Source: Proteinivorax hydrogeniformans (GTDB lineage: Bacteria; Bacillota; Proteinivoracia; Proteinivoracales; Proteinivoracaceae). From it: DNA of 64,000 bases. A program made the translations under genes and the position numbers. Numbering within the stretch: the stretch's first letter is position 1; each line of letters starts with the position of its first letter. Under the pieces are notes generated by a model, which saw only the letters and a list, made by a program, of their open reading frames with translations, had not been told where the DNA came from and ran no database searches. Positions 10,145-54,212 of this stretch are shown piece after piece. The DNA lies in the NCBI RefSeq assembly GCF_040515995.1, contig NZ_CP159485.1, forward strand, positions 930,001 to 994,000. The letters run 5' to 3'.

Positions 10145-10330
10145 AGAGCGCCTGAGGTGTTCGATACACCTTATAATTTTCAACCTACATTTTGACATTG
10201 GGAGCTTGCGTTTCATCTGTAACACTATGCCTCATTTTGTGGACAGTGGAGCTTGTGAACAGAGCACCCCCCTGAATTAACAGGGTTTTGAAAATTTTAG
10301 GGTATCGGCATTTTGGGTCACATAAAAATA
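10145..10330 (+). ncRNA. ssrS: Probable 6S RNA
   Basis: About 185 nt fold into a long imperfect hairpin as expected of 6S RNA. The closing stem pairs CGATAC and AATTTTCAACC (about 10162-10186) with GGTTTTGAAAATT and GTATCG (about 10292-10312). Inside lies a large bubble, with a small side hairpin CCCTG-AATTAA-CAGGG on its 3' strand, and a terminal irregular stem with paired GGGAGC and GCACCCC. 6S RNA mimics an open promoter and binds sigma-A RNA polymerase in stationary phase. Size, architecture, isolated position and perfect promoter all agree; primary sequence of 6S is poorly conserved, so a different structured RNA cannot be excluded. End points are approximate. Confidence 0.62.
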
Positions 10331-10387: not shown

Positions 10388-10536
10388 ATGATTTAGTAAA
10401 TGCGAAAGTTGGTATACAGTACTAACAAACTGATAGGATAGGGCCAACAGCAAGTTAAAGCATTGTTAGTTAAACTTTATTATGGGCAAACTATAGTTGG
10501 AAAAGTGTATTAATATGTACTTTATTAAATTGACGG

Positions 10537-10565: not shown

Positions 10566-10660
10566 GGAACTATCAGGAGCCTACCATAAAAATGGAGGTA
10601 ACCTTAAAAATGTTAATGAATAATTATTATAAAAATACTGCTTAAAGCCTTTTTGGCATG

Positions 10661-10747
10661 AGACAGGCATAATATAGATGTTCCCTACACTTTAAAAGGG
10701 ATATTTATGCGTGTCTATCTGCCATTATTGGAAGATAGATTTTTTTA
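10661..10747 (+). promoter_or_regulatory. Structured leader with intrinsic terminator upstream of the pan operon (possible pan RNA motif)
   Basis: The leader folds into a large stem: AGACA (10661-10665) with TGTCT (10712-10716), GCATAA (10667-10672) with TTATGC (10705-10710), and TCCCT (10682-10686) with AGGGA (10697-10701), with asymmetric bulges between. Its last 3 nt overlap a terminator stem TCTATCT (10714-10720) pairing with AGATAGA (10733-10739), followed by TTTTTTT, so the two are competing structures. A short reading frame (10592-10645, 17 codons, or 11 from the ATG at 10610 behind GGAGGT) precedes them. A conserved RNA called the pan motif, with bulged adenines, is known upstream of panB in Firmicutes; I infer this is such an element but have not aligned it. 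Confidence 0.65.
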
Positions 10748-10778: not shown

Positions 10779-11651
10779 TTGAAAATCGGGTTTATAGGAG
10801 CTGGTAAAGTTGCTAAAGGTTTCGGTATTTATCTGAAAGAAAGTGGACTTGAGCTTTCAGGGTTTTATAGTAGAACACTAGAATCTGCTCAAGAAGCGGC
10901 TAAGTTAACCAATTCTAAATCCTTAGCCTTAGAAGAAGTAGCAAAAAATAGCACAGTCGTTTTTATAACCACTCCTGATGACTTAATTGAAAAAGTCTGT
11001 AATGAAGTAGCAGAACAAGTTGGGTTTTCACAGGGCCAAACAATAGCTCATATGTCAGGAAGTTTAAGTTCTGAACAGTTAAAAATGGCCAAACAGCAGG
11101 GGTGCAACACTTTCTCCCTACATCCTCTTCAATCTTTTGCTGATCCTGTAGCATCAGCAGAGAAGTTAAAAGACACATTTTTTGCCTGGGAGGGCAAAGG
11201 AAACAAAAAAGATATTAGCAATATACTTACCGTCCTTGGAAATAATAACACCGAGATCTCTCCTGAGGATAAATCCTTATATCACAGCGCTGCATGCATA
11301 GCTTCAAACTACTTAGTAACTCTATTAGATTCGGCTATAAAACTGCTAGAAGATACAGGGATAGATAGAGAGCTTTCATGTGAAATCATCAGCAACCTAG
11401 CTACAGGCACAGTTTCAAACATTTCTAATTTGGATACAACCCAAGCATTAACAGGGCCTATTGTCCGGGGGGATGTTTCCACCATATCATCACACCTAGA
11501 TGCCTATGAAAAAAAAGGTTTGCTAGAAATAAAAAATATATATGCACTAATGGGCCTTAAAACATTGGATATAGCAGCAAAACGGGGGTTAAGCCCGGAA
11601 AAAATAGACCATATTAAAAAAATACTAAAGGAGGAAAATTTTAATGAGTAA
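10779..11651 (+). CDS. panG: Rossmann-like/DUF2520 oxidoreductase, probable PanG-type ketopantoate reductase
   Basis: The 290-aa protein begins with an NAD(P)-binding motif ([14 protein letters not shown]), followed by the helical DUF2520 domain that contains the [10 protein letters not shown] and [15 protein letters not shown] signatures. No classical panE is present in the operon, yet panB, panC and panD follow; proteins of this type (PanG, described in Francisella, with homologues in Enterococcus and Clostridioides) reduce ketopantoate to pantoate. Its place as first gene, overlapping panB by 8 nt, strongly suggests this role. Start is TTG, 7 nt after AAAGGAGGG. Family certain; the specific activity is inferred from context. 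Confidence 0.8.
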
Positions 11652-14247: not shown

Positions 14248-14310
14248 ACTGTCTCTCTCCTTTTACGGTATTTTGTTTTAGTTTAACCTAAAATAAAAAG
14301 AACTATTTAT

Positions 14311-14440
14311 CGCAGAGTCAACTGGCTTTAGACCTTAGCAGTTTGTAAAAAAGCCCATTAATAAAATTTAGGAGCCAAGAGCTAGTAAAAGCTAAATTTG
14401 GTGTTAGAAAGGCAACACTCACTGATGGACTTTCACTTTA
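14311..14440 (+). repeat. Diverged single copy of the 143-bp structured repeat
   Basis: This stretch aligns by eye with the three tandem repeats at 38.7-39.1 kb: it starts CGCAGAGTCAACTGGCT (repeat: CGCAGGTTAACTGGCT), carries AGCTAGTAAAAGC (repeat: AGCCAGTAAAAGC) and ends ACTTTCACTTTA (repeat: GTTTCACTTTA). The 3' hairpin is kept with other bases: GTGTT (14401-14405) pairs with AACAC (14414-14418). It fills most of the 396-nt gap before the FNR-like gene. The rest of the gap shows a TATAAT at 14485-14490 and no gene. Confidence 0.6.
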
Positions 14441-32002: not shown

Positions 32003-32080
32003 CTGAATGTAATAAAGTTGAATGTAATAAAGTTGAAAGTTGAAAGTTGAAAAGTGAAAGGTGGGGCTCGTGTGTGGGAC

Positions 32081-32775
32081 TTGCGCCCTTGCGGGCTGGA
32101 TCCTTCGGCGTGCCTCAGGATGACTTCAGGAAACTAGTGAGATAGTTGGATAGTTGGATTGTTAGATAGTTGGATAGTTGGATAGGGTTAGACCGTTTGT
32201 ACATACTGAAGGGTTTGTCATTTGCTGGCAGGGCGTATTAGTCATCTGCGTCTTTTTTCCCTGTGAGTAAGCCTTTGGCGTTAAGCTATCTTTCATTGAT
32301 GTCAGAGACATGGACATGTCGACTTATAAGTTAAAGGTGTCGAGCATGTGGAAAAACAGCAGAGGACTACCTTAGCCCATAAGTAAATGACAAACCCTGA
32401 ACTGACCTACTTGGGTTTGACATTAGCGTGGGTCTTGCGCCCTTGCGGGCTAGATCCTTCGGCGTAGCTCAGGATGACTTCAGGAAACCAGTAAGATAGA
32501 AGATGGTTGGTTAGTTGGATTGTTGGATAGAGTTAGACCCCTTGTGCATACTGAAGGGTTTGTCATTTGCTGGCAGGGCGTATTAGTCATCTGCGTCTTT
32601 TTTCCCTGTGAGTAAGCCTTTGGCGTTAAGCTATCTTTCATTGACGTCAGAGACATGGACATGTCGACTTATAAGACAAAGGTGTCGAGCATGTGGAAAA
32701 ACAGCAGAGGACTACCTTAGCCCAGAGATAAATGACAAACCCTGAACTGACCTGATCATGGGTTTTGTCCCTATC
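32081..32775 (-). repeat. Second long-repeat cluster, inverted relative to the first; two 354-bp units
   Basis: TTGCGCCCTTGCGGGCT occurs at 32081 and 32435, a 354-bp period. On the minus strand each unit reads AGCCCGCAAGGGCGCAA, GATCC-TTCGG blocks and TGACAAACCC segments, matching the units at 24.8-25.9 kb in the opposite direction. Just before (32009-32065) lie short direct repeats such as GAATGTAATAAAGTT (twice). TAGTTGGATAGTTGGAT runs are mirrored at 25.19 kb. No gene is visible between 31921 and 32782. Confidence 0.85.
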
Positions 32776-34333: not shown

Positions 34334-34371
34334 AAAACAAAGTATTGGATACCCCAACTAAATCCCAAAAA

Positions 34372-34552
34372 GAGATAGCACTCCACAGTAGATACGGGTT
34401 ATCTACTGTGACAGTCTCACAGCTATTAACTGTAAGCCCAGGAGAAAACTTCTATGGACAAAGCCCTCCTTCGGCGGTCATTCCTTTCCTTTTGAATCAA
34501 AGTTTCCATAACTCCTCAAAAGTACTGATAATTTCCGCACCTCTACCTCACT
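34372..34552 (-). promoter_or_regulatory. Lysine riboswitch (L box)
   Basis: On the minus strand the leader has the main invariant blocks of the lysine aptamer: GGTAGAGGTGCGG at the 5' end, AGTACTTTTGAGGAG, TGACCGCCGAAGGAGG, CTGGGCTTACAG, TGTGAGACTGTCACAG and the closing GGAGTGCTATCTC. GGTAG and CTATC close the five-way junction. Lysine binding should favour the downstream terminator and switch the transporter off. The short open frames overlapping it on the + strand are not genes. Confidence 0.95.
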
Positions 34553-34586
34553 GTTTAGTGAGGTACACTATTTAATTGACTATGCT

Positions 34587-38657: not shown

Positions 38658-38692
38658 AATCAATCCAGCGTAAAGCTGGGTTGATTAATTTT
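38658..38692 (+). terminator. Intrinsic terminator after the 83-aa gene
   Basis: AATCAATCCAGC pairs with GCTGGGTTGATT (one G-U pair), loop GTAAA, followed by AATTTT. Confidence 0.82.
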
Positions 38693-38693
38693 G

Positions 38694-39122
38694 CCGCAGG
38701 TTAACTGGCTGTAAGCCCTAACTTTATGTTAAGATACCCATAAATTGTAAGTGAGGACAACAGCCAGTAAAAGCCCGATTGGTTCAACTAACAATCAGTG
38801 AGGAAGAGTCACCTCAATGATTGAAGTTTCACTTTACCGCAGGTTAACTGGCTGTAAGCCCTAACTTTATGTTAAGATACCCATAAATTGTAAGTGAGGA
38901 CAACAGCCAGTAAAAGCCCGATTGGTTCAACTAACAATCAGTGAGGAAGAGTCACCTCAATGATTGAAGTTTCACTTTACCGCAGGTTAACTGGCTGTAA
39001 GCCCTAACTTTATGTTAAGATACCCATAAATTGTAAGTGAGAACAACAGATAAGTAAAAGCCCGATTAGTTCAACTAACAATCAGTGAGGAAGAGTCATC
39101 TCACTGATTGAAGTTTCACTTT
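38694..39122 (+). repeat. Three tandem copies of a 143-bp structured repeat
   Basis: Copies start at 38694, 38837 and 38980, each with CCGCAGGTTAACTGGCTG. Copies 1 and 2 are almost identical; copy 3 has scattered changes. Each copy has inverted arms ACTGGCTGT/ACAGCCAGT (lost in copy 3) and a hairpin CAATCAGTGAG...CTCAATGATTG that becomes fully paired in copy 3 (CTCACTGATTG). All end in GTTTCACTTTA. Diverged single copies lie at 14.31 and 54.13 kb. No reading frame or ribosome binding site is present. Confidence 0.92.
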
Positions 39123-39165
39123 ATGGTATAATTAATTATAAAAAAGAATTGAGGGGGAATAAGCG

Positions 39166-54110: not shown

Positions 54111-54125
54111 AAGCTATTATAACTG

Positions 54126-54212
54126 GGCATTAGAATGAAATTTTAAACAAAGCCCTCTGGTTCAACAACAATCAGCGGCAGAAAGCACGCTGCTTAATGA
54201 AACTTCACTTTA
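54126..54212 (+). repeat. Diverged partial copy of the 143-bp structured repeat
   Basis: It matches the 3' two thirds of the repeat: AAAGCCCTCTGGTTCAAC (repeat AAAGCCCGATTGGTTCAAC), ACAATCAG, and the end ATGAAACTTCACTTTA. The hairpin inside has other bases (AGCGGC at 54174-54179 with GCTGCT at 54189-54194) yet still pairs. Confidence 0.7.

Follow-up and report, generated by a model that had tools for sequence, protein, structure and literature searches.

Palindrome-associated transposable elements (PATEs) are defined by palindromes close to their termini together with a lack of target duplication and of terminal repeats, and invasion by other small repeats is frequent among them (PMC3119063). 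The group A IStrons of the IS200/IS605 family use TTGAT, ATTAT or TTTAT as targets, and they too have neither duplication nor terminal repeats (PMC4227781). The bcr1-3 repeats of Bacillus cereus are often transcribed inside UTRs (PMC3446304). Here we describe a real, widespread and covarying two-hairpin repeat of mobile DNA, found as a tandem array and as diverged copies in a 64-kb stretch of the Proteinivorax hydrogeniformans genome (the window). We consider it a small non-autonomous mobile DNA element of ∼130–155 bp, behaving as an IS200/IS605-type PATE would, a reading to which we assign a probability of about 0.6.

Copies in the window and their two-hairpin design

TRF detected a tandem array at 38690–39123 of the window, with a period of 143, 3.0 copies and 97% matches. 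A sequence-only reading of this DNA had described three tandem units of 143 bp at 38694–39122, and the units do follow one another head-to-tail from 38694, 38837 and 38980; the start stands, but the array runs to 39123 since the third unit has 144 bases. Copies 1 and 2 (38694–38836 and 38837–38979, both on the plus strand, from TRF and the covariance model) are identical, and copy 3 (38980–39123, plus strand, from BLAST and the covariance model) has ∼95% identity to them, differing at a few sites and being one base longer. To the left lies the pentamer TTTTG (38689–38693, plus strand), which by its sequence and the left-flank tables is a relaxed form of the T-rich target described below, and the right terminus is TTTAT (39120–39124, plus strand). 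The array does sit in front of an M20 peptidase gene, with a small unassigned ORF of 83 aa, itself following an acetyltransferase gene, on the other side; no ORF of at least 80 aa overlaps it.

Related single copies had been proposed at 14.31–14.44 and 54.13–54.21 kb. Both exist, although in diverged form: the covariance model R1, for which we used eight full copies and excluded the 14-kb and 54-kb sequences, recovered 14314–14440 (E 0.0013) and 54120–54212 (E 0.0014) within the 64 kb. The former (14310–14440, plus strand) has TTTAT at each end and the latter (54120–54212, plus strand) is a decayed copy consisting chiefly of the H2 and right-end half. A possible relic of hinge and right end, of low confidence, lies at 10439–10480 on the plus strand (E 0.0084 with the model from full copies). 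The window also holds a 345-bp unit in 1.9 tandem copies (32074–32753, 91% matches) that is unrelated to the two-hairpin element and, above Rfam gathering scores, a Lysine riboswitch (34368–34553), a 6S RNA (10146–10323) and a pan motif (10575–10670), the last ∼110 bases before an ORF starting at 10779.

Each full copy comprises two hairpins separated by a short hinge, on the plan [TTTAT]-left lead-H1-hinge-H2-CACTTTA(T), with TTTATCCCGCATTAACGGGC at the left end and GTTCAACTAAC...GAAGTTTCACTTTAT at the right. The base stem of H1 is 9 bp long and its inner stem is CCCCAC(C/T)T/A(A/G)GTGGGG, and H2 pairs CAATCAGTGGGGG with CCCCCACTGATTG above AACT/AGTT. In copy 1, on the plus strand, the H1 arms are ACTGGCTGT (5′, 38704–38712) and ACAGCCAGT (3′, 38760–38768), placed by folding and by stem covariation across genera; the conserved hinge between the hairpins, AAAAGCCCGATTGGTTC, occupies 38769–38785; and the two sides of H2, placed by folding and covariation, are AACT-AA-CAATCAGTGAGG (5′, 38786–38803) and CCTCAATGATTG-A-AGTT (3′, 38812–38828). 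H2 is as first described, with a G.A mismatch in copies 1 and 2 and full pairing of CAATCAGTGAG with CTCACTGATTG in copy 3. Folded as RNA, single units gave z scores of −3.6 to −9.3, and none of 200 shuffles was as stable.

Selection on base pairing, probably in DNA

The sequence-only reading had taken pair-preserving change as a sign of selection on an RNA or a cruciform, and had proposed searching the genome and its relatives with a covariance model. A search of this kind found further copies in the genome and in relatives, and covariation across copies exceeds that of shuffles. We aligned 58 full-length copies on sequence only (alignment A5), in which the 36 pairs are 93.6% standard, against 84.5% when shuffled. 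Two-sided changes occur in 26 of the 36 pairs (13.1 shuffled) and in 154 cells (42.2 shuffled), values that none of 500 shuffles reached. The covariation score across the 58 copies is 0.239, compared with 0.091 for shuffles and at most 0.062 for slid controls, so that displacing the partner by 1–3 bases destroys the signal. Pair 14–93 illustrates the range of variants (GC 35, TA 16, AT 4, CG 3), whereas the outer H2 bases give no information because the search pattern fixed them in most copies. Covariation within the P. hydrogeniformans genome alone is weaker, yet present. The variant hairpins at 14.4 and 54.2 kb, first offered as examples of compensation, belong to decayed copies and prove little by themselves, but the wider sampling shows true compensation. 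Selection on the base pairing of H1 and H2 is thus strongly supported.

Left end and hinge also appear to be coupled across the family: the second base after the left pentamer (TTTAT-C-X) is tied to the base before GATT, A going with T in 14 of 15 copies, and C accompanying any of G, C or T in all 94. This coupling is suggestive, since related species share ancestry, and a simple helix between left end and hinge is not established because the common C–C case is no pair, although A–T and G–C would be.

An RNA helix tolerates G–U far better than A–C. Among non-Watson–Crick cells we counted 54 A–C against 38 G–T in A5, and 92 A–C against 130 G–T in Ornithinibacillus gellani; as A–C departures are about as frequent as G–T, no RNA strand stands out. 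Orientation is random with respect to neighbouring genes called by a simple ORF rule, the upstream gene being on the same strand in 44 of 87 cases (p 1.0) and the downstream gene in 51 of 87 (p 0.13). Rfam gave no match to the repeat beyond chance ones at either gathering or relaxed thresholds, and the plus strand of the array carries nothing that resembles a promoter. An intrinsic terminator was rejected as there is no T-run after H2 on the plus strand. A DNA hairpin fits better than an RNA, given the near parity of A–C and G–T, the random orientation and the demonstrable insertion of the element as DNA at sites that have empty counterparts, and RNA function is not supported. More generally, pair-preserving change in a bacterial repeat can stem from DNA transposition and need not imply a functional RNA.

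Insertion sites, distribution and arrays

Two insertions in Virgibacillus proomii have empty counterpart sites in a relative, G076 (at one of the two: filled, ...ATTTTTATTTAT[CCCGC..CACTTTAT]AGAGCATG; empty, ...ATTTTTATTTATAGAACATG). The net gain is the element including one TTTAT, and insertion took place just 3′ of TTTAT. A 5-bp duplication would look no different from the favoured model at empty sites taken by themselves, given that the element's right end also reads TTTAT. Across copies the left target is variable and T-rich, mostly TTTAT, and the right end is fixed as CACTTTA(T). Among 42 O. gellani arrays and singletons, found by covariance model without selection on ends, left departures (TTTTT, TTTCT, TTTTC and similar) mostly face an ordinary TTTAT on the right, with one mirrored case (TGTAT/TGTAT). 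This pattern fits a left target and a right end owned by the element. The unmirrored departures argue against target duplication, although they could partly reflect later mutation, and we see no clear duplication. Terminal inverted repeats are absent, the left end TTTATCCCGCATT (or TTTATCGCAGGTT) and right end AAGTTTCACTTTAT not being inverted copies of each other, and an ordinary TIR-type MITE was rejected for want of inverted termini. None of 87 sites lies inside an ORF call, and the ∼150-bp units have no coding capacity.

The P. hydrogeniformans genome (2.83 Mb) holds the repeat at 22 places by BLAST and 25 by covariance model, some of the latter being antisense shadow matches, and has two further tandem arrays (2603237–2603703 and 2780870–2781149). 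A genome of the same genus (G001) gave 16 covariance-model matches. One from another family (G058) gave 23, many of which are a different repeat of ∼320 bp with an H2-like module. The exact two-arm H2 pattern occurs in at least 120 stretches of genome contigs, and the genera among the matches listed are Bacillus, Virgibacillus, Oceanobacillus, Ornithinibacillus, Lysinibacillus and Sporosarcina, with Paenibacillus-labelled genomes and some Clostridia. Evenly sampled genomes from the Bacilli order of V. proomii had a match in 30 of 120 cases, and those from the phylum of P. hydrogeniformans in 7 of 299, its own genome included; G119 of the order sample and G338 of the phylum sample share coordinates for several matches and may be one genome. 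With at most 150 candidates per genome scored, G066 had 137, G076 149 and G064 at least 150, some of which may be antisense shadow matches. Several Bacillaceae carry more than 100 copies, and related genomes can have none at all or far more than 100. No match to the element was found in viral contigs or phages, and plasmids (PLSDB) gave matches in five records only. One of these, the enterobacterial plasmid CP079755.1 of Klebsiella grimontii, matches the right-end half of the Bacilli element over 64 bp (221561–221624; locus L227:3001–3064), ∼1.2 kb from a restriction endonuclease gene.

Mean identity in O. gellani is 95% within an array and 86% between arrays, and for 61 of 68 array members the nearest copy lies in the same array, from which it follows that arrays grow or homogenise locally. 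Across 102 O. gellani copies, departures from consensus amount to 1.2% in the conserved core against 13.7% for the rest, and between array neighbours the figures are 1.0% and 6.5%; we delimited the core by eye and drew on copies among the best-scoring, so the contrast should be read as an upper estimate. Within O. gellani the H1 stem hardly varies in sequence, so that much of the covariation lies between lineages. No two dispersed O. gellani copies sampled exceeded 95% identity, which gives no sign of recent mobility there, a point against the reading favoured here. Other short hairpin repeats have inserted in the hinge or H2 loop of some family members (L178:1750–2260, L143:1880–2390, L118:3960–4200, L085, L089 and L150:4124–4305), those in L178 and L143 being arrays of ∼50-bp hairpins, and V. 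proomii copies have also been invaded by other small repeats.

Mobilisation, rival explanations and known systems

The most likely reading is that the element travels by single-strand transposition as a PATE-like passenger. A transposase of the HUH/Y1 type, acting on single-strand DNA and provided in trans, would bind the two hairpins on one strand and cut 3′ of TTTAT at both ends, and the excised strand would be joined to a new TTTAT. Ending in TTTAT, the element would recreate its target at the right edge, which would permit head-to-tail insertion, and unequal recombination or slippage could then lengthen and homogenise the arrays.

In P. hydrogeniformans one Y1 transposase gene is intact, within a palindromic frame of its own, and a second is broken. 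Y1_Tnp matches were present in 22 of 25 further repeat-bearing genomes scanned; O. gellani (at least 150 element matches), G067 and G072, which are drafts without contigs below 3 kb, gave none. None of 70 Y1_Tnp loci checked is framed by the ends of the element, the fragmentary Y1 locus L220 having three partial copies nearby in the wrong order. There is no LE-gene-RE composite in 0.93 Mb around copies, and long copy spacings were rejected as composite elements, being insertions of other DNA, including several hairpin-rich repeats. The element's own-genome Y1 genes, RAYTs, IS200 copies and the TnpB of G058 were likewise rejected as partners since their ends do not match. Two RAYT-type Y1 genes of the sister genome G001 (L073, G001:C1:464258; L075, G001:C1:2845357) each lie between tandem arrays of structured repeats that differ from this element and measure 170–180 bp. 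In the high-copy structured repeat of ∼320 bp (ATAAACAGGATT...CATCGGATAAA) in G058 (L062, L064 and L067), a CAGGTGGAGT hairpin carries the H2-like module on its tip, and a version lacking the module follows a TnpB gene (L069).

The same element could be moved by another mechanism, a site-specific recombination-like process that uses TTTAT as a crossover site or duplicated target, as proposed for the B. cereus bcr repeats. Although TTTAT at both ends, the head-to-tail units and the failure of any Y1 transposase among the loci checked to match all speak for such a process, we hold it unlikely: departures from TTTAT on the left are common and mostly unmirrored on the right, and recombination at TTTAT alone leaves the strong selection on two hairpins unexplained. 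It is rather unlikely that this is a Firmicutes-wide bipartite hairpin family in which the left end, the hinge and an H1 stem particular to each genome evolve together with a trans-acting factor that is no Y1 transposase. That would make it either a new mobility system based on single-strand DNA or an element that, once transposed, was retained for a role in the cell, the latter because single copies stay under selection. Mobilisation of a REP-like repeat by a RAYT-type Y1 transposase encoded elsewhere, as apparently happens to other tandem repeats of the genus, is clearly unlikely; no RAYT locus examined has the element on both sides and O. gellani is without any Y1_Tnp match, even if G001 holds two RAYT-like genes within arrays of other repeats and P. 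hydrogeniformans carries its intact and broken Y1 genes.

Retention for an RNA function, as a small RNA or cis element spread by transposition, would be in keeping with the stable folds, the strong covariation, a core whose rate of change is 12-fold below that of the loops (in 102 copies from a single genome, a sample skewed to high scores) and the transcription of bcr1-3 within UTRs. Yet G–T shows no clear excess over A–C, orientation is unbiased, Rfam and the plus strand of the array yielded neither a family match nor a promoter-like site, and copy number differs greatly among related genomes, some having none and others well over 100, and we regard this explanation as quite improbable. Very improbable is that the repeats are decaying and that their pairing derives incidentally from a handful of master copies that differ in their stems, without continuing selection. 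The near-uniform H1 stem of O. gellani would suit such an origin, but the contrast in that genome between core and loops, both against consensus and between array neighbours, speaks against it.

These repeats pose a concrete question as to the enzyme that moves them. They extend over several lineages of Firmicutes and can number more than 100 in a genome, but Rfam has no entry for them. Their covarying stems, coupled left end and hinge, and T-rich target offer a natural, sequence-rich test of single-strand DNA hairpin recognition.

That no known element matches, as the sequence-only reading had it, holds for Rfam, and no match to the core sequence appeared in the open literature searched; it does not hold for the kind of element, since PATEs (PMC3119063), like bcr1-type repeats (PMC6542083), have a closely similar design. 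REP elements with RAYTs are also dispersed intergenic palindromes linked to Y1 transposases, but REPs are single palindromes of 20–40 bp (PMC3733652), whereas the present element is a 150-bp two-hairpin unit without a linked RAYT, and no RAYT gene at the loci examined is flanked by it. B. cereus bcr1 resembles it by description, as an intergenic, high-copy, MITE-like repeat of 147–167 bp with a stable fold and a TTTAT motif, such as we find at the element's ends; by contrast, bcr1 is reported only from the B. cereus group (PMC6542083, PMC3446304, PMC2267715), and the consensus of our element has no DNA-level match on B. cereus-group plasmids in PLSDB (E 0.01). With IS200/IS605 elements, including group A IStrons, it shares insertion 3′ of T-rich pentamers (TTTAT, ATTAT), two subterminal hairpins and target specificity at the 5′ end only, but it lacks tnpA and tnpB and its right end is CACTTTA(T) rather than TCAG (PMC4227781); no Y1 HUH transposase lies inside the element in the 0.93 Mb around copies. 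PATE palindromes match identifiable IS605-type transposons, whereas no such partner was found in the genomes reached here, neither among the 70 Y1 loci nor beside the single TnpB of G058, and we therefore call the element PATE-like and not a PATE. Its tandem arrays of up to six units and the coupling of left end and hinge are absent from the parts of the PATE descriptions available to us (PMC3119063, PMC7290912). The PATEs of Haloquadratum walsbyi and IS605 hosts make no target duplication, on which our element gives a mixed picture, its left departures being mostly unmirrored but one mirrored; they share with it a lack of coding capacity, palindromes near both termini, the absence of terminal inverted repeats, high divergence between copies and frequent invasion by small repeats (PMC3119063, PMC7290912).
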